NCBI RefSeq assembly: GCF_024721265.1
Contig: NZ_JAMXOC010000001.1
Coordinates: 432,954 to 496,953, forward strand
Direction: 5' to 3'
Origin: Ohessyouella blattaphilus
GTDB lineage: Bacteria > Bacillota > Clostridia > Lachnospirales > Lachnospiraceae
DNA length: 64,000 bases
Part shown: positions 43,415 through 61,880 of the stretch, one piece after another
How the letters are laid out: the number at the start of each line of letters is the position of its first letter
Numbering within the stretch: the stretch's first letter is position 1
Position numbers and translations under genes: made by a program
The notes under the pieces: generated by a model
The model's database searches: none
What the model was told of the DNA's origin: nothing
Seen by the model: only the letters and a program-made list of their open reading frames with translations

Positions 43415-43435
43415 AGTCTTCACTCCTCTTCTAAT

Positions 43436-43470
43436 ATTGGTATTATACTACAATACCAATCAATATACAA
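43436..43470 (-). promoter_or_regulatory. Promoter and palindromic operator of the glycyl radical operon
   Basis: The 25-bp operator at 43436-43460 has half sites ATTGGTATT and AATACCAAT separated by 7 bp. On the minus strand the promoter is TTGTAT (43470-43465), 17 bp, TATAAT (43447-43442), with the -10 inside the operator. A near-identical site is at 61816-61840. Confidence 0.8.
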
Positions 43471-43506
43471 GACACCCTTGAGGAAAATCTAGAAGTCCGA
43501 AAAAAT

Positions 43507-43532
43507 AGGCGAATGAACTCATTCATTCGCCT
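43507..43532 (-). terminator. Terminator after the epimerase gene
   Basis: An 11-bp stem (AGGCGAATGAA / TTCATTCGCCT) with a 4-nt loop, followed on the minus strand by ATTTTTTCGG. It ends the rbs-type operon. Confidence 0.9.
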
Positions 43533-43539
43533 GGTCTGT

Positions 43540-44427
43540 TTACATATCGTATTTTCTTAGCATGCTCTGAGTAAATTCTAGTAAGCCTTTGGCGGCAACA
43601 TCTAGCTTTTCTTCCGTGGGATCAGGAATCAAATTGCGCCACGTCTTAATATCCCGGCCAACTTCTCCGCCCATCTGCACGAAAGGCTCGGAGACAATAT
43701 TGCCTTTAAAGTCAATATCCTTAAGAGCTTTAAAGACTTTATCCCAGTCAAGGGTTCCCATTCCTGGTGGCTTACGATTATTCTCGCCTGTATGGAAGCT
43801 TTTTAATAAGCTGCCGGCATGGCGAATCGCCTCACCCATATCGTTCTCTTCAATATTCATGTGATACGTATCCAGTAAAACCCCCACATTATCGAGTCCC
43901 ACTTCTTTTACGTAATCCACTGCTTCCACTGCGGTATTTAAAACCACACCTTCAAAACGGTTAACCGCTTCCACACAGTACGTAACACCGTAACCGGCTG
44001 CCGAACCAGCAATCTCCTTCATGCAGTTAATGCTGCGTTCTCTACGTACTTGCTTATCGTCATAGTTAATGATTTCACTAGGACTGCCCCAGCCTTCATA
44101 GCTAACACCAGAGATGATATCGCCACCTAAATAGGCTACCTTCTCAACGATTCGTTTTAAATACTCTACACCGCCACTGCGGACACTGCTATCGGCACTG
44201 GTCAAATCGTACTTCTTATCTAACCCAACACTAAACGTTAGTAAAACCCCTGCATCCGCTGCCGCTTTTTTTATTTCATCCAAACGACTATTATCCATTT
44301 CTAGGAGTGGTTGAGCTTGAAATTCTAAAATATCAAAACCGATTTTCGCTGCCTTATTAATGTACTTAATATGGTCTGCTGCCCAGTTCTCTTCCCAGAA
44401 ATTCATGAATATACCAAGTTTATTCAT
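43540..44427 (-). CDS. D-psicose/D-tagatose 3-epimerase family protein
   Basis: 295 residues, a TIM-barrel isomerase. The four metal ligands of D-psicose 3-epimerase are conserved: Glu153 (YCVEAVNRFEG), Asp186 (VLLDTYHMNIEEN), His212 (SFHTGENNRKPPG) and Glu247 (VSEPFV). Family members epimerise free ketohexoses at C3. It follows the ROK gene by 12 nt and closes a cluster with a ribose-type ABC transporter, so it likely acts on the imported sugar. A second homologue is at 59194. Confidence 0.88.
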   Translation of the reverse strand: MNKLGIFMNFWEENWAADHIKYINKAAKIGFDILEFQAQPLLEMDNSRLDEIKKAAADAGVLLTFSVGLDKKYDLTSADSSVRSGGVEYLKRIVEKVAYLGGDIISGVSYEGWGSPSEIINYDDKQVRRERSINCMKEIAGSAAGYGVTYCVEAVNRFEGVVLNTAVEAVDYVKEVGLDNVGVLLDTYHMNIEENDMGEAIRHAGSLLKSFHTGENNRKPPGMGTLDWDKVFKALKDIDFKGNIVSEPFVQMGGEVGRDIKTWRNLIPDPTEEKLDVAAKGLLEFTQSMLRKYDM

Positions 44428-44439
44428 CTATCTCCTCCA

Positions 44440-45543
44440 CTAAATACTCTCAAAAAAATCATCGATATAATTAAGAGCCGCTCCAGCCGCCGCCGATTCC
44501 ACTTTATACTTACAAGGCAAGATGTAATCCATCGCCTTCTCTTTCGTAAAGGGACTGCGAGCGTCTACCCTTCTGGCTAGCTCTTCTAAGTGCTCCTCAA
44601 TGTAAGCACCGATATAACCACCAATAATCACTTTACTATCAAACAACATCCGAATATTGTGAATACCTATCGCCAATTCATTTAGATACGTATCCCACAT
44701 TTCTGCTGCTTTTTTATCACCTTGCCCTAAAAGCTCAAAAAATTCTTCCAAGTTGCCATCTGTGTATTCATCTAATTTGGTCGCCCGACAAACCGTATCA
44801 AAGCAACCATAACGACCACAATAGCACTGTTCGCCGCCTTCGCGAACCACCAAGGTGTGACCAATTTCACCGCTTTTTAAAGTATCGCCTACATACATCT
44901 TGTTGTCGATAATCACCGAACCGCCAACACTATTATTTAGACTTAAATAAAAGGCATTCTTAAGGGTGCCATCAATCCACGCCTCAGCGTGTCCTGACAT
45001 CTCCGAATCATGAAAGAGACGGTTGCGATAAGGAACGTATTTGGCAATCCGCTTCCTCGTCGCCCCGGTAAAATTAAGAGTCATACCATAGGTAACGTCC
45101 TCGCCGTCTTCCGAGACTAGGCTCTGGACAGCTATCCCTACTCCCAGGAGCTGCTCATCGCTCACATCTGTTTTGCGTTTCACACTCTCTACTAACTCAC
45201 CGATCTTCTTAAGATACTCTTCATCCTCAAGATTAAATCGCGTCCGCACTTTTTCCTTTACTATCACCTGACCGTTTAAATCCACCGATACAGCAGTCAT
45301 ATGATTCTTCGTCAAATAGATTCCGATAGCAATTCGCGCCTGAGAAGCACCAGCGTAAGCAACCGCATTACGCCCTCCGGTGTTCTCGATCTTTGTCGGT
45401 GTTTCTACCACACCTAATTCCATTAAATATTGTAAATTATTTGAAACTGTTGGAAGACTGAGCTTCAAGCCAAAAACAATATCCTGTTTGGAAACCGGTC
45501 CGTTCCTTCGCACATATTGATAAATTAATTGACTTTTTCTCAT
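44440..45543 (-). CDS. ROK-family transcriptional regulator
   Basis: About 367 residues. An N-terminal winged helix (RKSQLIYQYVRRNGPVSKQDIVFGLKLSLPTVSNNLQYLMELGVV) precedes a ROK sugar-kinase fold with the zinc motif EQCYCGRYGCFDTVC and GGSVIID. The helix-turn-helix marks it as an XylR/NagC-type regulator sensing a sugar, probably for the adjacent transporter operon. I start it at the ATG at 45543; a GTG 15 nt upstream is possible. Confidence 0.88.
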   Translation of the reverse strand: MRKSQLIYQYVRRNGPVSKQDIVFGLKLSLPTVSNNLQYLMELGVVETPTKIENTGGRNAVAYAGASQARIAIGIYLTKNHMTAVSVDLNGQVIVKEKVRTRFNLEDEEYLKKIGELVESVKRKTDVSDEQLLGVGIAVQSLVSEDGEDVTYGMTLNFTGATRKRIAKYVPYRNRLFHDSEMSGHAEAWIDGTLKNAFYLSLNNSVGGSVIIDNKMYVGDTLKSGEIGHTLVVREGGEQCYCGRYGCFDTVCRATKLDEYTDGNLEEFFELLGQGDKKAAEMWDTYLNELAIGIHNIRMLFDSKVIIGGYIGAYIEEHLEELARRVDARSPFTKEKAMDYILPCKYKVESAAAGAALNYIDDFFESI

Positions 45544-45566
45544 AGCTCCACCCTTCACAACACCTT

Positions 45567-46514
45567 TTAGTTAGCTTTTCTCTTTTTCTGGATACAATCG
45601 AAGCCTACTGCTAAGGCTAATACAACACCCATAACAATATCCTGAACGTAAGAATTAATATTCATTAGTACCATGCCGTTTTGAAGAGCGCCGATGATAA
45701 ATGTACCAGCCACAACGCCAGACATCTTACCGTAACCACCCGTTACGGAAACACCACCGAGAACCACACAAGTGATAACATCGAACTCATAACCAAGACC
45801 TGCTGTTGCCATTCCTGAATTAACCCGAGATAACATAACGATACCTGCTAATCCAGCAAAGAAACCAGAGATGGCAAACACTAAATATTTAATTCTTCCT
45901 ACGCGAATACCAGATAACTTCGCCGCTTCTATATTACCACCAACTGCATAGAAATATCTACCAAAATATGTTTTATTAAGGATAAATGACCCTAAAGCAA
46001 AACAAAGTGCCATAATAATAACCGGTACCGGAATAATACCTACGTACCCCTGGCCGAACACCTTAAACTTTTCGGTAAAGCCGTTAATCGGCAAACCACC
46101 GGAGATAATAAGAGCCAAACCTTGGAAAGCCGTCTGGACCGCGAAGGTAGCGATAATCGCTGGCATTCCAACAGTCGAAACCATGAAACCGTTTAATAAA
46201 CCGATTACGGTGGAGGCCAATAAGGTAAGGATAATTGCCAACCACATATTCATGCCCATATGCACCATAAAGTACGCACAGATAATATTAACAAATGAAA
46301 TAATCGTACCCGTCGATAAGTCGATGTCACCAAGTAAGATAACAAAGGTCATACCGATTGAAGCAATTCCGTACATCGATACCTGACGTAACAGAGTTAA
46401 AATATTGTTCGGGTTTACGAAACGAGGATTGGCAATGGTAAAAACAATTACTAGAAAAATCAGCACCAGCCAAATCGCTTTATCCTTTAATTGATATACT
46501 ACTTTACTCTTCAT
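45567..46514 (-). CDS. Ribose-type sugar ABC transporter permease (RbsC-like)
   Basis: 315 residues, about ten membrane helices. CUT2 motifs include GDIDLSTGTIISFVNIICAY, GMPAIIATFAVQTAFQGLALI, GRYFYAVGGNIEAAKLSGIRV and the final DIVMGVVLALAVGFDCIQKKRK. It is shorter than the MmsB permeases in this window and belongs to the ribose/allose/xylitol-type branch. It overlaps the ATPase stop by 4 nt. Confidence 0.93.
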   Translation of the reverse strand: MKSKVVYQLKDKAIWLVLIFLVIVFTIANPRFVNPNNILTLLRQVSMYGIASIGMTFVILLGDIDLSTGTIISFVNIICAYFMVHMGMNMWLAIILTLLASTVIGLLNGFMVSTVGMPAIIATFAVQTAFQGLALIISGGLPINGFTEKFKVFGQGYVGIIPVPVIIMALCFALGSFILNKTYFGRYFYAVGGNIEAAKLSGIRVGRIKYLVFAISGFFAGLAGIVMLSRVNSGMATAGLGYEFDVITCVVLGGVSVTGGYGKMSGVVAGTFIIGALQNGMVLMNINSYVQDIVMGVVLALAVGFDCIQKKRKAN

Positions 46515-48034
46515 ACAGTCTTCTCCTCCTCGATACTGGTACGGGCTTCAGATGCGAACTCCATAATTACTTCTTGATTAAATTCTTCTTTAGCAAGTTC
46601 GCCGGTCATTTTCCCTTCTGATAACACCACAATCCGATCTGACATTCCCATCAACTCTTCCATTTCCGAAGAGATCATCAAAATCGCTTTTCCTTCTTTT
46701 TCCACAAGATCATTCATTATTTTATAAATTTCGTATTTGGCACCAACGTCAATTCCTCTAGTCGGCTCATCAAAGATAATAAGCTCAGAGTTTGCCGCTA
46801 GCCACCGTCCCAGAATTACCTTCTGCTGGTTACCACCGCTTAAGTTCTTCATTAGCTGATGTAAACTCGGAGTCTTAATCGCCATATTCTCCCGATATTT
46901 TTCAGCCGTTGCTACCTCTTTCTTAGAATTGATAACACTGAGCGTCGAGTTCTTCTCGTAAATCGGCATATTGATATTGTCCTTAATGGAAATCCCCAGC
47001 ATCGCTCCGTGACGCTTCCGGTCTTCTGGCACAAGGGCAATCCCGGTATCGATAGCTTCCCGCGGCGTCTTCGGATTTACTTCCTTGCCATTAATAAACA
47101 TCTGGCCCGACTGCCTTTTCGCTGCCCCAAAAATCATTTCTGCTAGCTCTGTCCGGCCAGCACCAACGAGACCACCAAGTCCAAGAATCTCACCTTTATG
47201 GACCTTTAAGCTAATATTTTCATCGCCGTTTCCGGTTAGGTCTTTCACTTCTAAGACTACCTGACTCTTATCGATGCAATCCCCTCTCGGCGGATAAGTC
47301 TCTGTCAACTCACGACCTACCATTAGCTTAATCAGTTCTTGTACATGACTTTCGCTAGTCTGTAACGTCTTAACGTATTCGCCATCTCGGAGAACGAGAA
47401 TTCTATCCGATAGACGATATATCTCTTCCAATCTATGAGATATGTAGATAATGGAAATCCCTTCTTTGCGAAGCCTCTCAACCACTCTAAACATACTCTC
47501 AACTTCGGCACTGGTTAGGGGTGCTGAAGGTTCATCCATAATCAAAATTTTGGCATCCTGCTGGATAGCCTTAGCGATTTCCACCATTTGCTGGTAACCA
47601 ACCGTCAAATCCTTCATTAACGTCTTAGGATTGATCTTGATTCGCAGCTGCTCAAACGCCTTTGCCGCTTCTCTTTCCATCGCCTTCTTATCAACAACTA
47701 TACCTTTTTTTATCGGGCGCCCAAGAAATAAGTTCTCAGCTGCCGATAGCTCTTTTACATTATTAAATTCCTGATAAATAATTGCAATTCCATTTTCCGC
47801 TGCTAACTGCGGCGTCATACTGTCATATTCTTTGCCATTTACAATAATCTTGCCAGAAGTCGGGATTACCGCTCCCGAACAGCATTTGATAAGGGTTGAT
47901 TTCCCAGCACCATTTTCCCCGATTAACGCCAGAATTTCGCCTTTTCTAAGTTCCAGGGTCACGTCTTTTAAAGCTACAACACCGGGATATTCTTTTCTTA
48001 TATGTTCTAATTGTAATACATATTCTTCACTCAT
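46511..48034 (-). CDS. Ribose-type sugar ABC transporter ATP-binding protein (RbsA-like)
   Basis: 507 residues with two ABC domains. The first has [33 protein letters not shown] and ILIMDEPSAPL. The second has [35 protein letters not shown] and [13 protein letters not shown]. It drives import of a pentose, hexose or polyol with the adjacent permease. The gap to the binding protein upstream carries a strong hairpin. Confidence 0.94.
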   Translation of the reverse strand: MSEEYVLQLEHIRKEYPGVVALKDVTLELRKGEILALIGENGAGKSTLIKCCSGAVIPTSGKIIVNGKEYDSMTPQLAAENGIAIIYQEFNNVKELSAAENLFLGRPIKKGIVVDKKAMEREAAKAFEQLRIKINPKTLMKDLTVGYQQMVEIAKAIQQDAKILIMDEPSAPLTSAEVESMFRVVERLRKEGISIIYISHRLEEIYRLSDRILVLRDGEYVKTLQTSESHVQELIKLMVGRELTETYPPRGDCIDKSQVVLEVKDLTGNGDENISLKVHKGEILGLGGLVGAGRTELAEMIFGAAKRQSGQMFINGKEVNPKTPREAIDTGIALVPEDRKRHGAMLGISIKDNINMPIYEKNSTLSVINSKKEVATAEKYRENMAIKTPSLHQLMKNLSGGNQQKVILGRWLAANSELIIFDEPTRGIDVGAKYEIYKIMNDLVEKEGKAILMISSEMEELMGMSDRIVVLSEGKMTGELAKEEFNQEVIMEFASEARTSIEEEKTV

Positions 48035-48064
48035 ATTTTTCCCTCACGGCCGTATTTATTGTTT

Positions 48065-48091
48065 GGAGGCGGTTTAAAGTAAACCGCCTCC
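48065..48091 (-). promoter_or_regulatory. Intercistronic hairpin between binding protein and ATPase (third operon)
   Basis: A perfect 12-bp stem (GGAGGCGGTTTA / TAAACCGCCTCC) with a 3-nt loop in the gap after the binding protein stop. Third example of this arrangement in the window. Confidence 0.75.
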
Positions 48092-48125
48092 AATTTGTTA
48101 GTCATTTCCTACTTATTTGCCGTTA

Positions 48126-49148
48126 TTACATTCCAGCGATGATATCATCAACATCGTCTACTGTAATCGCTCTTGTTGGTCTAACAACATTCTTATCACC
48201 TGAGAAGTCTTCGCCGCTAAGGATTCTCTTGTACATTTCTAGACAAGCTTTAGCTGTATCAAGGCTTGATCCTTCAAAGCCTACGATTGCGCGAACTGCT
48301 TCGTCGCCAGCTTTAAGAGATTCTAATTGTTGCATAGTAACGTCAGTTGTGATAACGCCAACATTCTCAGGAATCTTGCCAGCGCCGCCAAATTTTTGTA
48401 ATAAAGCTTCGTTTGCACCGATCATCGCGCCTGCACCAACACCTGCAAAGATTGTACAGTCAGGGTGTGCCTGAAGAACGGTCTCTACGTTTGCAAGAGC
48501 TTTATCCGCTTCAATACCTTCTACAGAAGCTACGATTTCGAATACGCCATCATCACAGAACTCTTCCAGACCTTCTTTAATACCAGTTTCTCTTTCTAGA
48601 AGAACCTTCGTTGAAGGATAGCCGATTGTACATACTTTCGCTGGAGCATCTTTCGTGTAGTTAGCGTTGATGAATTCAGCTGTTGCTTCACCGATGTCTC
48701 TACCAAGAGCGGTGTTGTCAAGAATCCAGTTAGCGGTGGTGTTTTCCATTGGATCATCCCAGCACATTACTTTAATACCAGCATCGAGAGCTTCCCCACA
48801 AATACCCTCAACCGCTTCTGCATCAGAAGGGTGAACCATGATCAGATCACAGCCTGAAGTAATAAAGTTTTCAATCTGGCTTACTTGAGTCGGAGCGTTG
48901 TCGCTACAGTCTACTAATGTATACTCATAGCCTTCTTCTTTAAGCAATTCTTCTAACTTGCCCATAACGCCTGCCCAGTAATCATTCTTCAGTGATTGAA
49001 TCGTGATACCAATCTTCTCTTTGCCGCCGCTATCCTTGTCAGAATCGCCATCAGCTGAACCACCGTCATCCGACTTGCCGCCACAGCCCATCAATAACAT
49101 AGATACCATTACGACACACAGCAGTACACTCAAAATCCTCTTCTTCAT
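48126..49148 (-). CDS. Ribose-type sugar-binding lipoprotein (RbsB-like)
   Basis: About 340 residues from the ATG at 49148 (AGGAGG site 9 nt upstream; the open frame continues to 49217). A lipobox signal peptide (MLLMGC) and a Gly/Asp/Ser linker precede a type I binding fold (IGITIQSLKNDYWAGVMGKLEELLKEEGYEYTLVDCSDN, MVHPSDAEAVEGICGEALDAGIKVMCWDDPM). The sugar is unknown. The leader upstream (49149-49260) contains two small hairpins, AATTATC/GATAATT and GTCCGG/CCGGAC. Confidence 0.92.
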   Translation of the reverse strand: MKKRILSVLLCVVMVSMLLMGCGGKSDDGGSADGDSDKDSGGKEKIGITIQSLKNDYWAGVMGKLEELLKEEGYEYTLVDCSDNAPTQVSQIENFITSGCDLIMVHPSDAEAVEGICGEALDAGIKVMCWDDPMENTTANWILDNTALGRDIGEATAEFINANYTKDAPAKVCTIGYPSTKVLLERETGIKEGLEEFCDDGVFEIVASVEGIEADKALANVETVLQAHPDCTIFAGVGAGAMIGANEALLQKFGGAGKIPENVGVITTDVTMQQLESLKAGDEAVRAIVGFEGSSLDTAKACLEMYKRILSGEDFSGDKNVVRPTRAITVDDVDDIIAGM

Positions 49149-49260
49149 ACACTTTTTCCTCCTTATGTGTAAGTTGTTTTTTTGTCCGGTTACTTTTTTC
49201 CGGACTTTATTCGACAATTATCTTTACGATAATTAATCAAAACACAGACAGTATCGCTTT

Positions 49261-50037
49261 TTAGAAGCTTGTAAAGGCTCCATCAACGATAAAATCAGAA
49301 CCGGTAGTAAATGGACTACTATCCCCTGCTAAGTAGACACAAATACCTTGAAGCTCTTCCGGCTTACCGATACGACCCATGGGGCCGATTTTATTCCACT
49401 CTTCCACCAAAGGCTTAAGCTTTGGATCATTGCTGATTAATTCGGTGCCGATGTAACCTGGGCTAATGCAGTTCACCCGCACGTTCTTCTTCGCCCATTC
49501 TACCGCCATCGACTTCGTCAGCATAATAACGCCAGCCTTTGAAGCATTGTAAGCGCATTGTGGTTGGGGCACATTAACGATGTGACCAGACATGGAAGCG
49601 GTATTGATAATGGAACCGTAGCCCTGCTTTAACATCACTTGACCAGCTGCTTGAGCAGTTAAGAACACCCCGTTTAGATTGATGTTAATGACCTTCATCC
49701 AAGCTTCATAGGACATTTCTTCTGCAGGTTCGTTGATACAGATACCGGCATTATTAAAGGCTACGTCTAATTTACCAAACGTCTCAACTACTTTTGCTAC
49801 CATGGCCTTAACGTCGTCAGGATCTGTTACATCGCACTTAATAGCGATGGTCTTAACGCCGTTCTTCTCGGCAATTTCCTTGGCGGTCTTCTCGGCCTCA
49901 GCGATATCCACATCCACAATCGCTAAATCCGCTCCCGCTTCAGCAAAGCCCGTTGCTACGCTTTTACCAATTCCTCTGGCACCGCCAGTTACGTAAATCG
50001 CCTTTCCATCCAGTCTCATTTTTTCCATTATGCCCAT
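49261..50037 (-). CDS. Short-chain dehydrogenase/reductase (sugar alcohol type)
   Basis: About 258 residues. NAD(P)-binding TGGARGIGKSVA, AFNNAG, and the catalytic Ser in NTASMSG with Tyr and Lys in YNASKAG. The C-terminal GIGKPEELQGICVYLAGDSSPFTTGSDFIVDGAFTSF-like tail is typical of polyol or sorbose/arabinitol-type SDRs. It probably oxidises or reduces the sugar or polyol taken up by the adjacent transporter. The ATG at 50037 lies 8 nt from AGGAGG; the first ATG (50043) is too close. Confidence 0.88.
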   Translation of the reverse strand: MGIMEKMRLDGKAIYVTGGARGIGKSVATGFAEAGADLAIVDVDIAEAEKTAKEIAEKNGVKTIAIKCDVTDPDDVKAMVAKVVETFGKLDVAFNNAGICINEPAEEMSYEAWMKVININLNGVFLTAQAAGQVMLKQGYGSIINTASMSGHIVNVPQPQCAYNASKAGVIMLTKSMAVEWAKKNVRVNCISPGYIGTELISNDPKLKPLVEEWNKIGPMGRIGKPEELQGICVYLAGDSSPFTTGSDFIVDGAFTSF

Positions 50038-50126
50038 TACCATAACCTCCTACTTATTTGTCGAAACCATTTTTGCAAGCCGTTTTGATATTTGCTTTTT
50101 TAAAACGGTTTTATAAATCTGCTTTT

Positions 50127-50155
50127 ATTATATTGCCTAGGCTTGTATTGTGCAA
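50127..50155 (-). promoter_or_regulatory. Promoter of the SDR gene
   Basis: On the minus strand TTGCAC (50155-50150), 17 bp, TATAAT (50132-50127). Downstream, within the leader, lies an inverted repeat CCGTTTT-N15-AAAACGG, a possible operator. Confidence 0.65.
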
Positions 50156-50205
50156 TATGCAAAAAGAAACAAAATTTTCATTAACAATTTGTTCATATTT
50201 GCTAA

Positions 50206-51264
50206 TTAGGAGATTTTGATAACGGATTTTACGATTTCATTCTTCTCTTTCACACTGCGATCCATCGCGTTTTGCACATCGTCAAACTCGAAAATATTCG
50301 TCACAATCCCTTTTAAGTTCACCTTTCCTTTTCGCACCGCCTCAATCGCTACTGGATATAGGTTCCGGTAACGGAATACGGTTTTGAAGGTTAATTCTTT
50401 ATCTAGAGCTAGGCTCATCATTAGATTTGACATGCCAGTCTTGCCGTAGCCAACCATCACGATGTTAGAGCCTTTTCGTAAAATCTGAATCCCTTGATTG
50501 GCAGCAATTTCTTGACCTGAAGTCTCGATAGCTAGGTCAAAGCCTTCACCACCTGTCACTTCGCTAGCCCAAGCAAGGATATCCTGATCCCGGCTATTAA
50601 ACGTGCCATCGGCGCCTAGTTCCATCGCCTTCTCTAAACGCTTATCAATTACATCTACTACATATACTTCCGAGACGCCAAAAGCCTTTAAAGCCATCAT
50701 CGATACCAAACCGATACAGCCCGAACCGAAGACAACCGCCTTCTGTCCGATATGCGCCTCTCCTTGAGAAGCGGCGTGAAAACCAACGGCTAAAGGTTCA
50801 ATTAAAGCCCCTTCTAAAGTACTCATATTCTCCGGAAGCTTAAAACAAAGGTCCGCCGGGTGAGCTACGTACTCCTGGAAGACACCGTCAACCGGTGGGG
50901 TAGCAAAAAAGATGACATCGTTACACAAATTGTATTTACCCTCTTTACAGAAACGACACTTTCCACAGGTCTTTCCTGGCTCTAGAGCAACTTTATCGCC
51001 TATTTTTAGGCTTTTCACATTTTCGCCCACCGCTGTCACCACGCCGCCTGGCTCATGTCCTAAGACGAAGGGCGGTTCCACTACGTAATCGCCAATTCGT
51101 CCTTCTTCATAATAGTGCATATCACTACCACAAATCCCGACATATTCTAGCTTAACTAGCACTTCATCCGCCGTCGGTACTGGCACTGGACGGGTAACAT
51201 AATCAATCTTGCCGATGCCAGTCATCACTGCTACTTTCATTTCTGATTTTATTTCTTTGTTCAT
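50206..51264 (-). CDS. Zinc-dependent sorbitol/xylitol dehydrogenase-like protein
   Basis: 352 residues, a medium-chain dehydrogenase. Catalytic zinc residues lie in YVGICGSDMHYYEEG and GHEPGG with Glu in IEPLAVG. Structural zinc cysteines are in GKTCGKCRFCKEGKYNLC. The NAD site is GSGCIGLVSMMALKAFG. The SDMHYYEEGRIGDYVVEPPFVLGHEP segment is typical of sorbitol/xylitol dehydrogenases. It likely oxidises a polyol to a ketose for the epimerases nearby (inference). Confidence 0.9.
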   Translation of the reverse strand: MNKEIKSEMKVAVMTGIGKIDYVTRPVPVPTADEVLVKLEYVGICGSDMHYYEEGRIGDYVVEPPFVLGHEPGGVVTAVGENVKSLKIGDKVALEPGKTCGKCRFCKEGKYNLCNDVIFFATPPVDGVFQEYVAHPADLCFKLPENMSTLEGALIEPLAVGFHAASQGEAHIGQKAVVFGSGCIGLVSMMALKAFGVSEVYVVDVIDKRLEKAMELGADGTFNSRDQDILAWASEVTGGEGFDLAIETSGQEIAANQGIQILRKGSNIVMVGYGKTGMSNLMMSLALDKELTFKTVFRYRNLYPVAIEAVRKGKVNLKGIVTNIFEFDDVQNAMDRSVKEKNEIVKSVIKIS

Positions 51265-51335
51265 CTTCTATCTTCCTTTCATATTGTTAATTAATTACTT
51301 TATTAATTCGTTTATTAAAGTTGGTAAAAATTTAA

Positions 51336-52499
51336 CTAGATCTTTAAAATTGCTTCTTCTACAAGAAAGACGGCTGCCCCTAAGGCTGCTGCCTCCACTT
51401 TATACTTGCAGGTGCGCAAAAAGTCCCTTTTTTTCTTAAAGATAATCCGCTGCTCCACGTAAGCTTTAAAGTCTTCAAGGTAAGGCTCCATAAAGCTCCC
51501 CACGTAACCGCCGAGAACGATATCACAGTCCATACTCATCACCAACATATCGACGGCATAGGCTAAATTATCCAAATACTCTTGCCATACTTGCTGGTGC
51601 TTTTTACTTCCTGCCTCTAACTTAGGAAAGAACTCTTCTAGCTTACCGTCTTCCATAGAGGCCAGTACAAGCGCGGAACAATAAGGATCCAAACACCCCT
51701 CCTTGCCACAATAACACGTCCTACCTTCGGGGCGAATCACCACGTGACCAAACTCGCCACCTTCCCAGTTATCACCTACGTACATATTTCGGTAATACCC
51801 TAGTCCACCCTGATTATTCGCTCCCGTCTCCAAAAGAATGGCACCACCGACGGTATTGCTTAAAGAAAGATAGATTAAGCTCTCATTGCGATTGCTACCA
51901 GCACACTCGGCAATCGCGCCAGCATTGGCGTCATTAGCTAAGATGCAAGGAAAATCGATGTACTTACACAAATCATCTGCCGTCAATTCCTCTGTGATCT
52001 GAAGCGTGTGGGATTTCTTAATTACGTTACGATTGGCATCTACAATTCCCGGAATAGCTACACCAATCCCACGGATTTTACTTTCGTCGATTTGATAATC
52101 AGCAATAAAACTTTTCAGCTCTTCACCTAGTACTTGGCGATATGCTTCCGTATTGGCGAAACGTCGTCGCTGCCGGCGATAAGCCACCACATCTTCTGAA
52201 AAATCTGTGCTTACAATACCGATATGATTTCTCGTGATATCAATCCCTAAGAACAAAAAGGCATCCTTAATGACCCCATAAGCTTTCGCCTTACGGCCGC
52301 CCGTTGAAGCAAGCTCACCCACTTCTTCTACCACCCCAGCCGCACATAGCTCACCAACAATCGTTAAGACCGTCGGCCCGCTCATGCGAAGGGCCGCAGC
52401 AATTTCTGGCATACTGGCTTCCGCTACCGTATTAAGATAGCGGAAAACCCGATTGCGATTTATCTTCTTTACTTCCTTGCTGCTCGTCCCTTTTACCAT
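51336..52499 (-). CDS. ROK-family transcriptional regulator, second copy
   Basis: About 387 residues. Winged helix (KEVKKINRNRVFRYLNTVAEASMPEIAAALRMSGPTVLTIVGELCAAGVVEEVG) plus ROK domain with LGIDITRNHIGIVSTD, LANDANAGAIAECAG and the zinc motif TCYCGKEGCLDPYC. It is paralogous to the protein at 44440. A promoter TTCACT-N17-TATAAA lies upstream. The start is the ATG at 52499 after GGTGAAGG. It probably controls the polyol dehydrogenase genes. Confidence 0.88.
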   Translation of the reverse strand: MVKGTSSKEVKKINRNRVFRYLNTVAEASMPEIAAALRMSGPTVLTIVGELCAAGVVEEVGELASTGGRKAKAYGVIKDAFLFLGIDITRNHIGIVSTDFSEDVVAYRRQRRRFANTEAYRQVLGEELKSFIADYQIDESKIRGIGVAIPGIVDANRNVIKKSHTLQITEELTADDLCKYIDFPCILANDANAGAIAECAGSNRNESLIYLSLSNTVGGAILLETGANNQGGLGYYRNMYVGDNWEGGEFGHVVIRPEGRTCYCGKEGCLDPYCSALVLASMEDGKLEEFFPKLEAGSKKHQQVWQEYLDNLAYAVDMLVMSMDCDIVLGGYVGSFMEPYLEDFKAYVEQRIIFKKKRDFLRTCKYKVEAAALGAAVFLVEEAILKI

Positions 52500-52578
52500 G
52501 CCTTCACCAACTTTATTAAACATTTTAATTAAGTATTTATATAATGAATAATATCATTAGTGAACCCATTGTGCAAGA

Positions 52579-53655
52579 CTAATTTATCACTTTTATATCT
52601 GCTGCTCCAAATGTCCCATAAGGAGTCTTAACCGTAGTCCGCGGCCACTTGCCACTATCGGTAAAATTCTCTACGCCATTTTCATTCAAATACGTAGTAT
52701 CTTCGCATTTCGTTCCTGTAATCGTCGGGTTCCAAGCAAAGACATACCCTGTTTGCATGGCCCCTGGTGTGGTTTCGCTAACCACGATTTCTCGGCAAGC
52801 GTACCCGGTGGGTCCTCCTTGGTGGTGGAGACGCCACTCGCCGGCATAGCCTGCCTCTTCGTATAGATGTATAACCTCTGAAAAATAATCTTGGTATTTC
52901 TTCCCTGCCTCAAGAAGGCCTTGCATTCCAGCAAAGATATACTGAACACCCTTCATCTTCTCTGCTAACTCAGCAGGCACCTCGCCAAAGCAAACCATTC
53001 TTGTAAGACTTATGTATAGGCCGTACTTTTCCCCACCGAGAACAATCATTAGCGTCTTCTCGATAGCCTTATCCGTCGGCGCTGGGTGACGAAATTTATT
53101 GATACGCTCATCACTCCCCACCAGGACGCAGTCCGGTGCTACCCCGGCGGATAGACACATTTTCTCGAGCCTTGTAGCGACACTTTTTTCCGTCTCACCG
53201 GGGCGGCTATTTACAATCACTTCTTCTACTATTTCCGCCATCTGCTTACCGATTTCCCGGTAGTGCTCAATATCCTCCTCACGTAAATCTAGGCGCAACT
53301 CTACTAGCTGGGCCTCAATACTCGGAGTGTCAAGCACACCACAATCACTCATCATCCGCCGACCTTCACAGTACTCCGTAAGAAACGGCACCACGCCTAC
53401 TTCCCAAGGCACTTCCACCATCTTCGCCCCAAGACGATTCTGTTCTTCATTCATCCGCCTAGCATCGCTTACATCCGCTACTAGTAAAAGCTCATCCGCT
53501 GTCACCACCAGATAGGCCACACCCATCTCGGTGGCGGTTAGAATTTCATTGCGGTCCCCTTCTGTAAGCCAGAGATAATTGTCTTGACGTCCCAAGATTA
53601 CCCCAGTGTAATCATTTATCTGTAAAAACTCGCGTAAACGCTGTAAATTTGTCAT
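52579..53655 (-). CDS. M24 (creatinase/aminopeptidase-fold) protein with degenerate metal site
   Basis: 358 residues. The N-terminal creatinase-like domain (residues about 1-125) and C-terminal pita-bread fold (HYREIGKQMAEIVEEVIVNSRPGETEKSVATRLE) match the M24 family. In active metallopeptidases two aspartates, a histidine and two glutamates bind metal. Here the position of the aspartates reads GLYISLTRMVCFG, with neither Asp. Creatinases also work without metal, so it may be a hydrolase of a small amine compound or a non-enzyme. It is 12 nt behind an alcohol dehydrogenase gene in the same unit. Confidence 0.75.
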   Translation of the reverse strand: MTNLQRLREFLQINDYTGVILGRQDNYLWLTEGDRNEILTATEMGVAYLVVTADELLLVADVSDARRMNEEQNRLGAKMVEVPWEVGVVPFLTEYCEGRRMMSDCGVLDTPSIEAQLVELRLDLREEDIEHYREIGKQMAEIVEEVIVNSRPGETEKSVATRLEKMCLSAGVAPDCVLVGSDERINKFRHPAPTDKAIEKTLMIVLGGEKYGLYISLTRMVCFGEVPAELAEKMKGVQYIFAGMQGLLEAGKKYQDYFSEVIHLYEEAGYAGEWRLHHQGGPTGYACREIVVSETTPGAMQTGYVFAWNPTITGTKCEDTTYLNENGVENFTDSGKWPRTTVKTPYGTFGAADIKVIN

Positions 53656-53666
53656 AAGCGACCTCG

Positions 53667-54722
53667 CTATTCCATGTTAATACACACTTTACCCGTTTTT
53701 CCCGTAGCAAAGACCCGGAAGGCTTCATCGGCGTCTTCCAAATTAAAGCGATGGGTGATAATCTGCGACGGATGTATCTTCTTCCGATCTAATAAATCAA
53801 CTAAATTCTCCATATTGGCCATGGAAGTCACCCATGATCCCAATAGAGATAGGTTCTTATGAAGTAACAATGGACTCGGTTCAAAAGAAACCGTACCTTG
53901 CTCACCGAGGAACGTGACTCTGCCCCACATTCTCGCAGCTTCAAGACACTTATGGCGTCCCGCTGCACTACCAGAGCAATCAATCGCCACTTCTACCCCT
54001 TTACCACCAGTAAATTCCATAATCTCTGGCAAAGCATCGGCACCGGTAAACACCGCGTCCGCGCCCACTTTCTTCGCCATCTCGGCTCTTTCTTCCGATA
54101 AGTCAACGCCGATTACCCTTGCGCCTAAAGCTTTGGCTAAAATAACCGTTGCCTGACCAACTGGTCCAAGACCCATTACTAAGACATTGTCTCTACCGGA
54201 TACTTCTGCCCGCAGAAGTCCTTGGTAGGCGGTACCAAAACCACAAGCGATCATCGCCCCGTCTTCGTAAGTCAAAAATTCTGGCAAGTGAATACAAGTC
54301 GCTGCATCTGCTACCATATATTCGCCCATCGCGCCGTCTCGTTGCCAACCATACGCTCTTCGCTCAGGATTAGGACAGTTGATAAAGTAGCCCTTACGAC
54401 ATTCGTCGCAGTAGCCACAACCTTGAATGTGATATACCGTAACCCGGTCACCCTCTTTAAAATCGAGAACCCCTTCGCCAACAGCCACTACCTGACCGCT
54501 AGGTTCATGACCGCAAATCACGTTATCGTAGCGCGCGCCGCCTGTCTTATCGGTGTGCTCATGGTAAATGTACTTAAGATCACTACCACAGATGCTAGCT
54601 GCTTTCATCTTTAATAACACTTGTCCGTGACCCGGTGTGGGAACATCGTATTCGCCAGCCGCTACTGTAGAGTCTCCTGGCAGCTTCATTCCTAACATTC
54701 TTCTTGGAAGTTCATATTTCAT
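53667..54722 (-). CDS. Zinc-dependent alcohol (polyol) dehydrogenase
   Basis: About 351 residues. Medium-chain dehydrogenase with catalytic zinc site (AASICGSDLKYIYHEHTDK, CGHEPSG), structural cysteines (GCGYCDECRKGYFINC) and NAD loop (VMGLGPVGQATVILAKALGARVIGVD). It is only distantly similar to the enzyme at 50206, so a different substrate is likely. The ATG at 54722 has GGAGG 8 nt upstream. It heads a two-gene unit with the M24-like gene and is probably controlled by the AraC gene upstream. Confidence 0.88.
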   Translation of the reverse strand: MKYELPRRMLGMKLPGDSTVAAGEYDVPTPGHGQVLLKMKAASICGSDLKYIYHEHTDKTGGARYDNVICGHEPSGQVVAVGEGVLDFKEGDRVTVYHIQGCGYCDECRKGYFINCPNPERRAYGWQRDGAMGEYMVADAATCIHLPEFLTYEDGAMIACGFGTAYQGLLRAEVSGRDNVLVMGLGPVGQATVILAKALGARVIGVDLSEERAEMAKKVGADAVFTGADALPEIMEFTGGKGVEVAIDCSGSAAGRHKCLEAARMWGRVTFLGEQGTVSFEPSPLLLHKNLSLLGSWVTSMANMENLVDLLDRKKIHPSQIITHRFNLEDADEAFRVFATGKTGKVCINME

Positions 54723-54812
54723 TCTCGTATCCTCCATGGTTTATTTATGCCTCAATTTTAGCACCTTTAACACCTCATAGGAATTAACTATCATTGAAAA
54801 TGATGGACTATG

Positions 54813-55703
54813 TTACTGTCTTTGTAGGTAGTTCCCATTTCGGTACTCCTTCGGTGATACCCCGATTACTTTTTTAAAAATCCGTGAAAAATAATAGGGG
54901 TCTTCATACCCTAACTCCTGACTGATTTCTACTATATAACGGTCAGTAGCCTTTAGTAGCTTACACGCCTCTTGCATTTTTAAGTTAATAAAAAAATCAA
55001 TCGGCGCTTTATCCGTATACTTCTTAAAGGTAGCATTTAGATAACTCTTCGAAAGCCCTAGTTCATCGGCAAGAGCATCTAACGTCAAGACCTTATCTAG
55101 ATTGCGGTACATATACCGGATACTCATGGTTACGTGTTTGTTCTGTTTACTGGCTTCATCCACCTTCTCACGGAAATAGAACTCCGAAAGAATCAGCGAC
55201 AACACCTGAGACATATAGATGAAGTTACCCAGAGTATAATTGCGGCGCAGTACCCGGAAAAGGATATCAAATAAGGTAATGATACGACTTTCCCCTGCCT
55301 GAGAGTTCAGCTCAATGATCTGCTTTCTAGAAAGGGGATAGTATGCCGCGTTTTCTCCTTTAAAATGCACCCAGAAGATACTCCAAGGATTTTCCTCACT
55401 GGCATAGTACTCGTGCCGCTCGCCTGCAGGGATCGTAAAGGCCTCATGGTCTCGCAAATGATACTTTTCTCCTTCGACGACAATGGTCCCCTCACCTTCC
55501 ATACAGTAGATTAAGATATTCTCCTCGCCGCCCTCCTCTCGCTCGCGGTAATGATGTAAGGCCTTAGGGAAAAAACCGATATCCGTCAGAAACAAGCCCC
55601 TGATTAAAGGATGATCCTTATAATCGCTGAAGCTTTCCATCGGTATCACAATATATTGTTCATCTTTGAAACCATCTTTTTTCTTATCTTCTCTATTTAA
55701 CAT
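54813..55703 (-). CDS. AraC family transcriptional regulator
   Basis: 296 residues. An N-terminal cupin sugar-sensing domain (GEGTIVVEGEKYHLRDHEAFTIPAGERHEYYASEENPWSIFWVHF) is followed by two C-terminal helix-turn-helices (TLDALADELGLSKSYLNATFKKYTDKAPIDFF and ELGYEDPYYFSRIFKKVIGVSPKEYR). It is divergent from the DUF5107 gene and upstream of the dehydrogenase unit, so it may activate both sides. Confidence 0.9.
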   Translation of the reverse strand: MLNREDKKKDGFKDEQYIVIPMESFSDYKDHPLIRGLFLTDIGFFPKALHHYREREEGGEENILIYCMEGEGTIVVEGEKYHLRDHEAFTIPAGERHEYYASEENPWSIFWVHFKGENAAYYPLSRKQIIELNSQAGESRIITLFDILFRVLRRNYTLGNFIYMSQVLSLILSEFYFREKVDEASKQNKHVTMSIRYMYRNLDKVLTLDALADELGLSKSYLNATFKKYTDKAPIDFFINLKMQEACKLLKATDRYIVEISQELGYEDPYYFSRIFKKVIGVSPKEYRNGNYLQRQ

Positions 55704-55775
55704 ATTTTCATGTTAGCAATAATATGTAATATTGTCCATCTTTTTCATTTATATGATATTCTTTTTGCTCATTCT

Positions 55776-55810
55776 TTGTGGTAACTTTTACTTAAACTTA
55801 CATAAGTAAA
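55776..55810 (+). promoter_or_regulatory. Promoter and palindromic operator of the DUF5107 gene
   Basis: TTGTGG (55776-55781), 17 bp, TACATA (55799-55804). An inverted repeat TTTACTTA-N8-TAAGTAAA (55787-55810) covers the spacer and -10, a likely repressor or regulator site. Confidence 0.55.
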
Positions 55811-55833
55811 TTTGATAAAGGAGAGATTTTAAA

Positions 55834-58800: not shown

Positions 58801-59127
58801 ATGCTCTATCAAGGACTCGCATGTGAAGAACTAGCCGATAACAAAAGTGCCAAGAGAAACTATCACCTACTTAAATCTTTCGGTGAGAAACATCTCTTCG
58901 ATGAGGTGGAATACGACTTCTTCGCAGTCTCTCTGCCAGAATTCAACATCTACCAGGAAGACATCGGCGATAACAACGTAACGTATTGCAACTACTTAAT
59001 CGCTCTTAGCGAAATCGGTCTAAAGAACTACTCCGAAGCCGAAAGACGGTTACACGAACTATTAGAAGTTCATCCAGACCACCAAGGAGCTTTGATGCAC
59101 CTTAAATATATTGAAAGAATGAAATAG
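55834..59127 (+). CDS. DUF5107 domain protein with TPR repeats
   Basis: 1097 residues, no signal peptide. The N-terminal about 330 residues form a DUF5107 domain resembling aldose mutarotase-like beta-sandwiches (YLENQYLKVMILPELGGRIQRAYDKTNDYDFVYYN, GGIEFNWPQHHRPTTYSPV). A linker leads to many tetratricopeptide repeats up to the C-terminus (for example SYFNLGLVQVLLGEDAQAYDAFYKS, GMAYRNLSIAYYNKEKNPEKALAAIEKAY). Such proteins are often found beside AraC regulators and sugar transporters, and the function is not established. An AAGGAGAG site lies 9 nt before the ATG. It is one of the few plus-strand genes in the region. Confidence 0.85.
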   Translation: MKNNESVKVWQDEITLPTYPVAPPEKAPLFIESRAYQGSSGKVYPLPVTEKIEDKPVDQTYQAIYLENQYLKVMILPELGGRIQRAYDKTNDYDFVYYNHVIKPALVGLTGPWISGGIEFNWPQHHRPTTYSPVEYAYEENADGSATVFVSELDQMYGTKGMGKFTLYPDKAYIEIKGQLYNNTDLPQTFLWWANPAVPVNDHTYSVFPPDVNAVMDHGKRAVSTFPIATGEYYKFDYSEGVDISMYKNVEVPTSYMAAHSDYDFIGNYDGQLEAGLLHVADHHISPGKKQWTWGNADFGQAWDRNLTDEDGPYIELMTGVYTDNQPDFTWLKPHEEKTFTQYFMPYKGVGRVKNATKNAAANLTFGNGIGEVAIYTTAAYENLRLTINDSDGGVIYEKSLTLDPGSSFTDTFTSELTADSSTGCTLMLTTSKGETLVSYTVPKTELAATPEPAEKLPAPLELKSTEELYLAGQHLEQYRHATREPADYYEEGLRRDPTDIRLNNAYGLLKMRRGHLEEAKALFEAAINKQTWKNPNPYYGESYFNLGLVQVLLGEDAQAYDAFYKSTWSYETESPGYYWLATLACKQKNYESALEFLGQSLLRNWHDIKARTLKIACLRALGRDTKEELTRALEIDPLYIGLLFEEGHCTGDFTKFQKVMRGCINNYLELALLYMDAGLYADALAILENITTLSPMANYYQGYIYQLLGDSKKALLAYQAGEKVNPDGCFPSKIIEMLILTDATKVLPEAPFANYYLGNLLYDKKQYKAATKRWETCTNLRPDYGMAYRNLSIAYYNKEKNPEKALAAIEKAYTLDPDYPRLLMEYDQMRAINRVAPEARLELLEEKLGVVKERDALYVNYINLLNLTGKYTEALDHISNHLFHPWEGGEGKVSGAYRYALTGNAIKAMGAGNYQEAIALLEKTLTYPENLGEGKLPNVQDNIAHYYLGKCYQAQGMDEKAHHYFILASKGIDEPASVLYYNDQPSDTMLYQGLACEELADNKSAKRNYHLLKSFGEKHLFDEVEYDFFAVSLPEFNIYQEDIGDNNVTYCNYLIALSEIGLKNYSEAERRLHELLEVHPDHQGALMHLKYIERMK

Positions 59128-59142
59128 GCAGTAAATAAAAAC

Positions 59143-59181
59143 AGGGAACTTTTGAAGTGATATTTTCTTCAAAAGTTCCCT
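59143..59181. terminator. Bidirectional terminator between the DUF5107 and epimerase genes
   Basis: A perfect 15-bp stem (AGGGAACTTTTGAAG / CTTCAAAAGTTCCCT) with a 9-nt loop, T-rich on both sides, between convergent genes. Confidence 0.9.
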
Positions 59182-59193
59182 TTCGTTCTTAAC

Positions 59194-60063
59194 TTAACCC
59201 ATAACTTTCTTCAAGTATGCCGCTGAATTTCCGGCTGCGCTATCTAGCGTCTCCATCCTATCATCACTTAAGAGATTACGCCAAACCTTAATATCGGCGC
59301 CAACCTTTCCGCCTTTGGTAACGAATGGCTCCATCACCACCGGTCCAGAAAAATCTATCTCGTTTAAGATTTCCCCAATCTTTTCCCAGGACATAAGCGT
59401 CCCCGCAAGAGGCGGACGTCTATTGGCTTCTCCTACGTGTAGCTCGCCTAAATAATCTCCTGTTTCTCTAATGGCTTCTAAGAGGTTATCCTCTTCAATA
59501 TTCATGTGAAAGGTATCTAGTAAAACCTTGACATTAGGCCGATCCACCTCTTTCACGTAAGCCAAGGCTTCTTTGGCGGTATTGATTACATAGCCTTCAA
59601 AGCGATTCAACGCTTCCATATAAAGAGTAATGTCATATTCTGCCGCCAAATCAGCAATTACTTTCATATTTTCAATACTAACTCGCGTATCCCCTTCCTT
59701 ATCGACACCACTTGCATAATCTACCGGCCAATAAGAATACAGCGCTCCCCCAAGACTCTTAATGCCCGCAATCTGCATTTTACGAAAAATATCGCGGTAA
59801 AAGCGAATGGCTCGCGCCACTGTCGCCTCCTCCTTAGAAGCCGTATTGTGAGCCGGAATCGGACCATAGCCACCAGTCAGCTCTATTCCGTACTTAAGTG
59901 ATTCAGCCCGCATTTCTTCAAAAAAGGAATCCGGGCGCTGGTCAAAATCAGCACATGCCACCTCTAAGACATCAAACCCTAAATCCTTCACCTTCTTGAT
60001 AAAGGGAATGGGATTTCCGCCCCACTCTTTTTCCCAATAAGAACAGTAAATACCTATCTTCAT
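59194..60063 (-). CDS. D-psicose 3-epimerase family protein, second copy
   Basis: About 289 residues. It follows clostridial D-psicose 3-epimerases closely. With the start at MKIGIY the metal ligands fall at Glu150 (YMEALNRFEGYVINTAKE), Asp183 (LLDTFHMNIEED), His209 (LHVGEANRRPP) and Glu245 (VMEPFV), essentially the numbering of characterised enzymes. The substrate-pocket segment GGALYSYWPVDY is also typical. It is the last gene of the reductase-aldolase operon and should interconvert ketohexose C3 epimers. Confidence 0.9.
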   Translation of the reverse strand: MKIGIYCSYWEKEWGGNPIPFIKKVKDLGFDVLEVACADFDQRPDSFFEEMRAESLKYGIELTGGYGPIPAHNTASKEEATVARAIRFYRDIFRKMQIAGIKSLGGALYSYWPVDYASGVDKEGDTRVSIENMKVIADLAAEYDITLYMEALNRFEGYVINTAKEALAYVKEVDRPNVKVLLDTFHMNIEEDNLLEAIRETGDYLGELHVGEANRRPPLAGTLMSWEKIGEILNEIDFSGPVVMEPFVTKGGKVGADIKVWRNLLSDDRMETLDSAAGNSAAYLKKVMG

Positions 60064-60083
60064 TCTCTCCACTTCCTTTCTTC

Positions 60084-60755
60084 TTACAGCTCGTAGATTC
60101 GTTTATTTCCATAAAGGGCTTCCCAGTCCTCTTTAAAACGGCCAACCGTCTCCGTAATCAAAGCGCTCTCTACCATCTCTCGGTAAAGCTCTGGCGTCGT
60201 GGTCACCGCATAAGCACCACCAGCAAATGATTGCAACACTTGATCGGCATTCTTAAGACTCGCCACAATAATTTTCGTTCCTAGATTGTGTTCTTTAAAG
60301 AGCGAAGCCATTTGTCTAATACTATCTGCCGCAGCAATCCCTTCGTTACACATCCGGTTATAATAAGGAGCCACGTAATCCGCTCCGGCAATCCCTGCCA
60401 TCACTCCTTGCGACACTTGATAAATAGCAGTAGCCGTTACCTTATACCCTTTTTCCTTTAAGGTCTTGATAGTCTTAAGTCCTTCCTCGTTTGTGGGCAC
60501 TTTGATAAAGGTCTCTTTACCTACACAAGCCGTAATCGCCCCCGCTTCTCTCACCATTTCTTCACAAGTGGAACCAGTCACCTGGATATGAAAATCCTTA
60601 TCACCAATCACCTCTCTAATCTCTGTTATGAGGGGAAAGAAGTCGCGTTTTTCCTTCGTCAAAATCGTCGGATTCGTGGTCACACCGAGAACCTGATATA
60701 TCTCCAAACCTGCTTTGATTTTCTCTACATTTGCACTATCTAATACTATCTTCAT
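60084..60755 (-). CDS. Fructose-6-phosphate aldolase-like (FSA/transaldolase family) enzyme
   Basis: About 223 residues, the FSA size. Counting from MKIVLDSAN, the Schiff-base lysine is Lys85 (FIKVP) and Tyr131 is conserved (VAPYYNR); both match E. coli FSA numbering, and Tyr131 separates FSA from true transaldolases. TTNPTIL and TATAIY are also conserved. FSA splits fructose 6-phosphate or 1-deoxyketose phosphates into glyceraldehyde 3-phosphate and a ketone such as hydroxyacetone. The ATG overlaps the reductase stop (TAATG), with AAGGAG upstream. The actual donor here is not known. Confidence 0.88.
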   Translation of the reverse strand: MKIVLDSANVEKIKAGLEIYQVLGVTTNPTILTKEKRDFFPLITEIREVIGDKDFHIQVTGSTCEEMVREAGAITACVGKETFIKVPTNEEGLKTIKTLKEKGYKVTATAIYQVSQGVMAGIAGADYVAPYYNRMCNEGIAAADSIRQMASLFKEHNLGTKIIVASLKNADQVLQSFAGGAYAVTTTPELYREMVESALITETVGRFKEDWEALYGNKRIYEL

Positions 60756-61783
60756 TAGTTCTCCTTCCATCCTGTCCGATCAATCACACCTTCCAAATCC
60801 CAAATATTTCGCCAATCCTTCGCGCCTGGCCATAAAAACACCTTCGCCTTTATCAGCCGGTCACCTTTATCCGCCTTTTCGATAATCCTCATCTCTTCTT
60901 CTGAAAGCGGGTCGCTGTAAACCGCCTTGTAATTATCGGTATACTCGCTTTCTTTTACTGAAAAAGGTACGGGAATATGCCCTCTCTGGGTTGCCCACTT
61001 TAGACATACCAAGGCGGGATGAACGCTGTGACGCTTCGCTATCTCCACTAGCTCTGACATCTTAAACACTTCTATATCTGTGACTTCTGTATCTCTCGCT
61101 GGCCGCTCCGCTGAGCCAAGTGGCGAATAGGCAAGGGGTATTACCCCCTGCTCCTGACAGTAACGAAAGAGTTCTGGCTGCTGAAAAGCTGGATGCATCT
61201 CCACTTCGTTAAAAACCGGCCGCCGCCGACAAAGAGGCAACACTTCTCTTAACTTCGGAATCGTCATATTAGAAACGCCAATATACCGTACCAAGCCTGC
61301 ATCCACTAGTGCTTCCATCTGAGTCCAGGTAGCCATAAACTCGTCTACAAAGAAAGGCCTGGCGTCCGGGTGGCGGTCATCGATCCCCGCTCCCGGCGCG
61401 TGATAATTAGGAAAAGGCCAGTGAACCAAATAGGCATCCAAATAATCTAACTGCAAATCCTTTAGCGTCTTCTTTAAAGCCGCTATTACCTTCCCAGGGC
61501 CGTGCATATCGTTCCATAATTTCGATAGGATAAAAAGCTCCTCTCTCTTTACCAAGCCCTGTGCAAATGCCTGCTGATAGACCCTGCCGATATCCTCTTC
61601 ATTTCCATAGGCTGCCGCTCCGTCAAAAAAACGATAACCTGCTTTAATCGCTCCGAGAACGGCGGCGGCAACCTCTGATGACTTGTACTTATCGTTGCCA
61701 AAAGTCCCCATGCCGATAATTGGCAAGCTTTTTCCATCCTTAGAGGTTACCTCTGGAAGATTAGCATTCCTTAAAATATCCAT
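60755..61783 (-). CDS. Aldo/keto reductase
   Basis: About 342 residues. An AKR barrel with the catalytic tetrad visible: Asp and Tyr in RFFDGAAAYGNEEDIGR, Lys in FILSKLWND, His in DAYLVHWPFP. Cofactor-binding VPFSVKESEYTDNYKAV lies near the end. It likely reduces a carbonyl with NAD(P)H. The ATG at 61783 has a very strong AAAGGAGGAGG site. It is the first gene of an operon with FSA and epimerase under the GGTATT/AATACC operator. In a radical sugar route it could reduce the ketone or aldehyde released by the aldolase (inference). Confidence 0.9.
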   Translation of the reverse strand: MDILRNANLPEVTSKDGKSLPIIGMGTFGNDKYKSSEVAAAVLGAIKAGYRFFDGAAAYGNEEDIGRVYQQAFAQGLVKREELFILSKLWNDMHGPGKVIAALKKTLKDLQLDYLDAYLVHWPFPNYHAPGAGIDDRHPDARPFFVDEFMATWTQMEALVDAGLVRYIGVSNMTIPKLREVLPLCRRRPVFNEVEMHPAFQQPELFRYCQEQGVIPLAYSPLGSAERPARDTEVTDIEVFKMSELVEIAKRHSVHPALVCLKWATQRGHIPVPFSVKESEYTDNYKAVYSDPLSEEEMRIIEKADKGDRLIKAKVFLWPGAKDWRNIWDLEGVIDRTGWKEN

Positions 61784-61815
61784 CTCCCCCTCCTCCTTTA
61801 TTTTCATTCTCTCCA

Positions 61816-61850
61816 TTTGGTATTATGGCATAATACCACTTTGTGTATAA
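61816..61850 (-). promoter_or_regulatory. Promoter and shared palindromic operator of the reductase-aldolase operon
   Basis: The 25-bp site at 61816-61840 has half sites TTTGGTATT and AATACCACT. On the minus strand the promoter reads TTATAC (61850-61845), 17 bp, CATAAT (61827-61822). The -10 lies at the same operator position as in the site at 43436-43460. Confidence 0.75.
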
Positions 61851-61880
61851 TATACCCAATCTACCGCCGAAAGTCAACGA

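Follow-up and report, generated by a model that had tools for sequence, protein, structure and literature searches.

Two near-identical palindromes in a 64,000-nucleotide stretch of the Ohessyouella blattaphilus genome (contig NZ_JAMXOC010000001.1, positions 432,954 to 496,953; hereafter the window, numbered from its first base) are very probably the operators of a single AraR-like repressor of the GntR type, which is predicted from the sequence to control two operons and to be released from both by a sugar-type ligand. Operator 1 (ATTGGTATTATACTACAATACCAAT, 43436-43460, centre 43448) precedes the genes for the repressor itself (42398-43414), a glycyl radical enzyme (GRE) activase, the GRE and an FGGY kinase, whilst operator 2 (TTTGGTATTATGGCATAATACCACT, 61816-61840, centre 61828) precedes an aldo/keto reductase, a fructose-6-phosphate-aldolase-type aldolase and a ketose 3-epimerase; the two groups lie 18 kb apart and all of these features are on the minus strand. 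The palindromes had been picked out in a sequence-only reading of the window and both are present there, sharing 19 of 25 bases, or 19 of 22 once the three middle bases are set aside, with the arms TGGTATTAT and AATACCA identical between them.

A search of the assembly (3,247,578 bases, or 3.25 Mb, in 88 contigs, 98.9% complete) found TGGTATTRTNNNAYAATACCA exactly at these two sites, with no place at one or two mismatches and eight at three mismatches, which rules out for this genome that the motif stands at many unrelated promoters. The pattern TTGGTATTN7AATACCA has the same two exact places, together with one less symmetrical place at one mismatch (C12:40980). Scored with a weight matrix trained on 12 operator sites from other genomes, site 1 reaches 34.5 bits and site 2 19.0 bits, and no other window position scores 8 bits or more. 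A first-order simulation yielded two places of at least 19 bits in 64.4 million positions, or 0.10 expected per genome, and a count of the motif with up to three mismatches, confined to the window, gave six matches against 2.2 expected, a number reached by 6 of 100 shuffles and weak by itself. On its own, site 2 is therefore not overwhelming genome-wide, and the case for it draws on its position and on the relatives as well as on its score.

Conservation in relatives, set beforehand as a test of the regulon, was borne out, the motif being kept together with the regulator. In a family set of 397 genomes, the pattern TTGGTATTN7AATACCAA with at most one mismatch occurs at 67 distinct places in 62 genomes (G and L numbers below are our labels for genomes and loci). 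All 12 exact places precede operons of the activase, GRE, kinase and GntR set, starting with activase, regulator or FGGY kinase; the GRE is in view at 11 of them, and the twelfth (G015) is on a 4-kb contig that shows activase and GntR. The 55 one-mismatch places comprise window site 2, one site at a GRE operon (G239) and 53 others. We inspected 52 of these 53 (G083:C33 was left out): 45 fall inside open-reading frames of at least 150 amino acids and seven outside, pathway genes are absent from the stretch at 51, and the remaining one (L097) lies near a different GRE, only 27% identical. On these counts we rejected a role of the motif as a general element. The exact motif TTGGTATTNTNNNANAATACCAA was found in none of 390 other genomes from a class-wide draw. 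Tandem operators stand before the activase at two loci, at 8205 and 8258 in L276 (53 bases apart) and at 8958 and 9002 in L259 (44 bases apart).

The operator follows the regulator. GRE carriers were sought without regard to the operator, with at most two candidates scored per genome, so that some carriers may be missed; 20 of the 397 genomes carried the GRE, 17 of them with the GntR regulator. A site of at least 8 bits precedes the GRE operon in all 16 testable GntR-bearing carriers, the seventeenth (G057) being untestable as its contig ends too early. Among the three carriers lacking GntR, neither G051 nor G375 reaches 7 bits anywhere in the stretch examined, and the contig of G204 is cut. 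A second set, more independent of the matrix training, was drawn from the best 80 of 291 GRE loci, 71 of which were testable in having an activase and at least 150 bases upstream; it overlaps the family set, as three of its loci match contigs there in length and gene positions (L258 that of G135, L229 that of G329 and L275 that of G259). Here an operator of at least 23 bits was present in 8/8 testable loci with a linked GntR gene, against 1/63 loci without one at 10 bits or more and 3/63 at 8 bits or more (Fisher p = 8e-10 at 10 bits across the 71 loci). The three sites lacking a linked regulator are L258 (28.6 bits), where the regulator lies further along the same contig, L229 from Mordavella massiliensis (8.5 bits), where it lies on another contig, and L280, whose 8.3-bit site is not palindromic. 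The GRE frame is split at L045 and L078, which belong to G057 and G231; the regulator is kept in both genomes and the operator in G231.

This association bears on the suggestion that the palindromes are no operators at all, and reflect AT-rich chance or a promoter-derived symmetry (TATAAT and its mirror). The operator arms do overlap -10-like sequence, and the simulated 0.10 places per genome and the weak window-only count leave chance some room; against this, there are two exact places with no near misses in 3.25 Mb, the outer TTGG/CCAA arms, which a promoter does not need, recur across genera, and the operator tracks GntR presence. We set this explanation aside after the genome-wide pattern counts and the simulation, and regard it as highly improbable.

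The split arrangement recurs in G329, which has a single regulator, located in an operator-GntR-reductase-kinase operon, whilst the GRE operon, on a different contig, carries the operator and lacks a GntR gene; the arrangement is the mirror of the window. Operator-GntR-reductase-kinase operons also occur in G231 and G135, in addition to operator-bearing GRE operons, and the reductase-operon sites score 25.6 bits in G231, 13.2 bits in G329 and 7.0 bits in G135. The proposal that the GntR protein at 42398 governs a seven-gene, two-operon regulon is supported as a prediction by the conservation of the motif with the regulator and by the G329 mirror case, and comparative genomics lends the predicted regulon strong support. 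In G329 a deoxyribose-phosphate aldolase gene (L191:6473-7153, TIGR00126 above cut-off) lies on the other side of the operator, divergent from activase and GRE, and may be an alternative aldolase partner.

Several observations weigh against this reading. Site 2 is the weaker site, and 11 of the 16 operator-positive genomes had served to train the matrix, leaving G000, G135, G259, G329 and G354 outside the training. The G135 reductase site, at only 7.0 bits, is a clean palindrome with other outer bases, and, of the 14 GRE carriers that have a reductase match, 10 showed no operator directly before the reductase in the DNA examined. Further sites in G259 precede an aldose epimerase, a GDSL hydrolase and a 1117-amino-acid protein, therefore the regulon can differ between species. 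Finally, a close footprint of site 2 is absent because the one other Ohessyouella-genus genome examined is without GRE and GntR. Closer relatives of the proteins do exist: P0003, P0122 and P0149 are 77, 56 and 73% identical to GRE, regulator and reductase, and probably share one contig, as the longest contig given for each measures 27,593 bases.

Such points leave room for an alternative in which the GntR protein acts at site 1 alone, and site 2 is a similar palindrome of another regulator or the relic of a duplicated promoter. It would account for the lower score of site 2 and its different promoter geometry, G231 has two GntR paralogues and two operator variants, and two ROK regulators and an AraC-type protein are encoded nearby. 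The identical arms of the two sites and the operators with GntR at the reductase operons of three other genomes argue the other way, as does the presence in this genome of one GntR of the regulator's kind (at E up to 1e-20). We consider a separate regulator for site 2 improbable. A scan of genome contigs with the regulator protein gave no relative. Covariation between regulator residues and operator variants is only suggestive.

The sequence-only reading had placed both operators over the same promoter geometry, with the -10 inside the operator and a 17-bp spacer, and this is only half borne out, with a good fit at site 1 and a poor one at site 2. Promoter 1 (43442-43470, TTGTAT-17-TATAAT, 3 and 6 consensus matches) has its -10 inside operator 1. 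Of 31 other operators, 18 contain a -10 that is preceded, at a distance of 16 or 17 bases, by a -35 matching TTGACA at five or more of its six bases; site 1 keeps this common place with a weak -35 (TTGTAT). At the equivalent place, site 2 has only TTATAC-17-CATAAT (2 and 5 consensus matches); the best-scoring promoter, TTGACT-17-TATATT (61849-61877, 5 and 5 matches), stops 9 bp upstream of operator 2, which would therefore cover the start region, an arrangement also found at three G259 sites.

Under a single repressor, the protein would bind both operators and repress its own operon of regulator, activase, GRE and kinase as well as the reductase-aldolase-epimerase operon. Repression would act by promoter blocking, as operator 1 covers the spacer and -10 and operator 2 would lie over the start region just behind the better promoter, and bound protein would block RNA polymerase at either site. 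A sugar-type ligand on the LacI-like body would then release both operons, giving induction.

The gene content named for both operons in the earlier reading agrees with the Pfam and NCBIfam assignments, and each gene run is probably one transcript. In operon 1, with gaps of 9 to 15 bases, the regulator frame (42398-43423, PF00392) is followed by the radical SAM activase (41654-42382, TIGR02494 above cut-off), the GRE (39296-41641, PF02901, with Gly754, Cys413, Glu415 and His159 kept in alignments) and an FGGY sugar kinase of the 435-amino-acid type (37979-39286, PF00370/PF02782), which is also labelled in most of the best-80 GRE loci. Operon 2 runs from the reductase (60755-61816, PF00248) through the aldolase (60084-60770, NF009299 above cut-off) to the epimerase (59194-60072, D-psicose 3-epimerase family, NF051856 above cut-off). 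Judged by homologues, translation probably begins at ATG 43414 for the GntR protein (after P0121) and ATG 61783 for the reductase (after P0146, giving 342 amino acids), 22 and 33 bases behind the respective operators. The window activase has 242 amino acids, compared with mostly 288-295 in GntR-bearing relatives and 258 in G329. A second aldo/keto reductase, 51% identical, is encoded elsewhere in the genome at G000:C13:2395-3351, with no TGGTATTRTNNNAYAATACCA-search match listed on that contig. Between the operons (43540-54737) lies a block of ribose-type ABC transporter, dehydrogenase and ROK-regulator genes that lacks the operator. Much of this block (43-88% identical per gene) directly adjoins the GRE operon in G231, G296, G323 and G384.

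One repressor would switch both operons together, and the two halves are therefore predicted to form one sugar-breakdown pathway, which the seven proteins likely serve. The reductase and the GRE co-occur, with a reductase match (E up to 1e-95) in 14 of 20 GRE carriers and 53 of 377 other genomes (p = 7e-8). The operator lies directly before the reductase in four of these 14 carriers, and six of the 14 matches are only 52-54% identical and may represent another reductase. Places of 9-11 bits were seen at three reductase loci (L149, L157 and L167) of genomes without a GRE match. An aldolase 49-52% identical to that of the window shares a gene run with GRE and GntR in three best-80 loci, including that of Blautia schinkii, and aldolases of 40-45% identity lie near the GRE in other loci. 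A mannose-6-phosphate-isomerase-like neighbour is present in 46 of the best 80 GRE loci, often right behind the FGGY kinase.

These neighbourhoods can be read in another way, namely that the regulon is real and its genes do not form one linear pathway, the reductase, aldolase and epimerase processing another rare sugar that shares the inducer. The reductase matches in genomes without a GRE match fit this, as do the frequent isomerase-like neighbour and the aldolase being in view in only three of the best-80 loci, whereas the GRE-reductase co-occurrence and the aldolase beside GRE and GntR in those three loci speak for a single route; we hold two processes under one inducer to be possible, if somewhat unlikely.

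In a single pathway, a sugar or polyol would undergo C-O elimination by the GRE, phosphorylation would fall to the kinase, the aldolase would cut the product, the reductase would reduce the unphosphorylated piece and the epimerase would feed in a 3-epimer. A pathway resembling anhydroglycolysis is our guess. A literature search found no paper on the set of GRE and FGGY kinase, nor on anhydroglycolysis, no title dealing with this enzyme set stood among the further papers listed, and PMC11528403 makes no mention of kinase, aldolase, GntR or sugar. A more specific version, that the regulon is an undescribed radical sugar pathway (GRE, 3-epimerase, kinase, aldolase and reductase) governed by an AraR-like repressor of a new type whose operator is long, is tentative and we rate it as unlikely in full. 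In it, an anhydro sugar or polyol would be imported without phosphorylation and lose a C-O bond through elimination by the GRE, giving a 1-deoxyketose, the 3-epimerase would tune this before the FGGY kinase phosphorylates it, the aldolase would yield glyceraldehyde-3-phosphate and hydroxyacetone, and the reductase would convert the latter into 1,2-propanediol. The operator links a GRE subfamily for which no function was found to a set of partner enzymes, and it offers a ready assay, namely which sugar releases the repressor.

The GRE has no near relative that is characterised, matches no NCBIfam model above cut-off, and no solved GRE structure is close; its own structure model (mean pLDDT 66) was not used. 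Many of the best-80 GRE loci are labelled as gut metagenome Clostridia. Gly754 and the GCQEP motif (Cys-x-Glu), features of eliminase-type GREs, are invariant in 138/138 aligned sequences (the window's counted twice). The best PDB match is the B12-independent glycerol dehydratase 1r8w (E 3e-56, more exactly 3.2e-56), with PflD (E 1.1e-45) and YbiW (E 3.6e-27) both weaker. The dehydratase residues His164, Cys433, Glu435 and the radical glycine correspond to His159, Cys413, Glu415 and Gly754 in the window; its His281, Ser282, Tyr339 and Asp447, in contrast, have given way to Phe272, Ala273, Ser318 and Thr427, and each of these four residues is conserved in 130 to 138 of the 138 aligned relatives. 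In 1r8w, His281, Ser282 and Asp447 bind the substrate; with these replaced by Phe272, Ala273 and Thr427, and given the sequence distance, a glycerol or diol dehydratase was rejected. A lyase of the YbiW/PflD type was also rejected, given the weak kinship and pocket positions that differ from those of PflD too.

The kinase, aldolase and reductase of the window nevertheless recall the route for 1,5-anhydroglucitol in E. coli, in whose later steps, as reportedly described by Ma et al., FsaA/FsaB perform the cleavage and a reduction yields 1,2-propanediol. In this YbiW/PflD pathway for 1,5-anhydroglucitol and 1,5-anhydromannitol, the substrate is phosphorylated by the phosphotransferase system (PTS) and the GRE cleaves the sugar derivative to 1-deoxyfructose-6-phosphate (PMC12441222). 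The routes differ in that the PTS acts there, whilst here an FGGY kinase is encoded in the operon.

For the regulator, the N-terminus matches the GntR winged helix (PF00392, 68.5 bits, cut-off 27) and the rest matches no Pfam model. Its AlphaFold model (pLDDT 89) has LacI and PurR, and also RbsR, as its best Foldseek matches (best E 2e-14), which indicates a GntR head on a LacI-like body and an AraR-like architecture. AraR of Bacillus subtilis governs thirteen genes spread over three chromosomal regions, and four bases separate GT from AC in its consensus operator (PMC4218819). The window regulator shares with AraR the winged-helix head, the LacI-type sugar-sensing body and palindromic operators; it differs in a distantly related DNA-binding domain (4egy, E 2.7e-5) and in the genes regulated, and lacks the short operator of AraR, so we describe it as AraR-like in predicted architecture and do not file it as AraR. 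Long operators are known from the YtrA subfamily of GntR regulators, whose long motif, as in the window, has its GT and AC well away from the centre of the palindrome; the C-terminal domain there has only about 50 residues in two helices, unlike the full LacI-like body predicted here (PMC4494728). The GT-AC spacing is 13 in both window sites (the spacing with which the sites of relatives were sought), and the window presents a probable LacI-bodied GntR regulator with palindrome arms 9 bp further apart than those of AraR.

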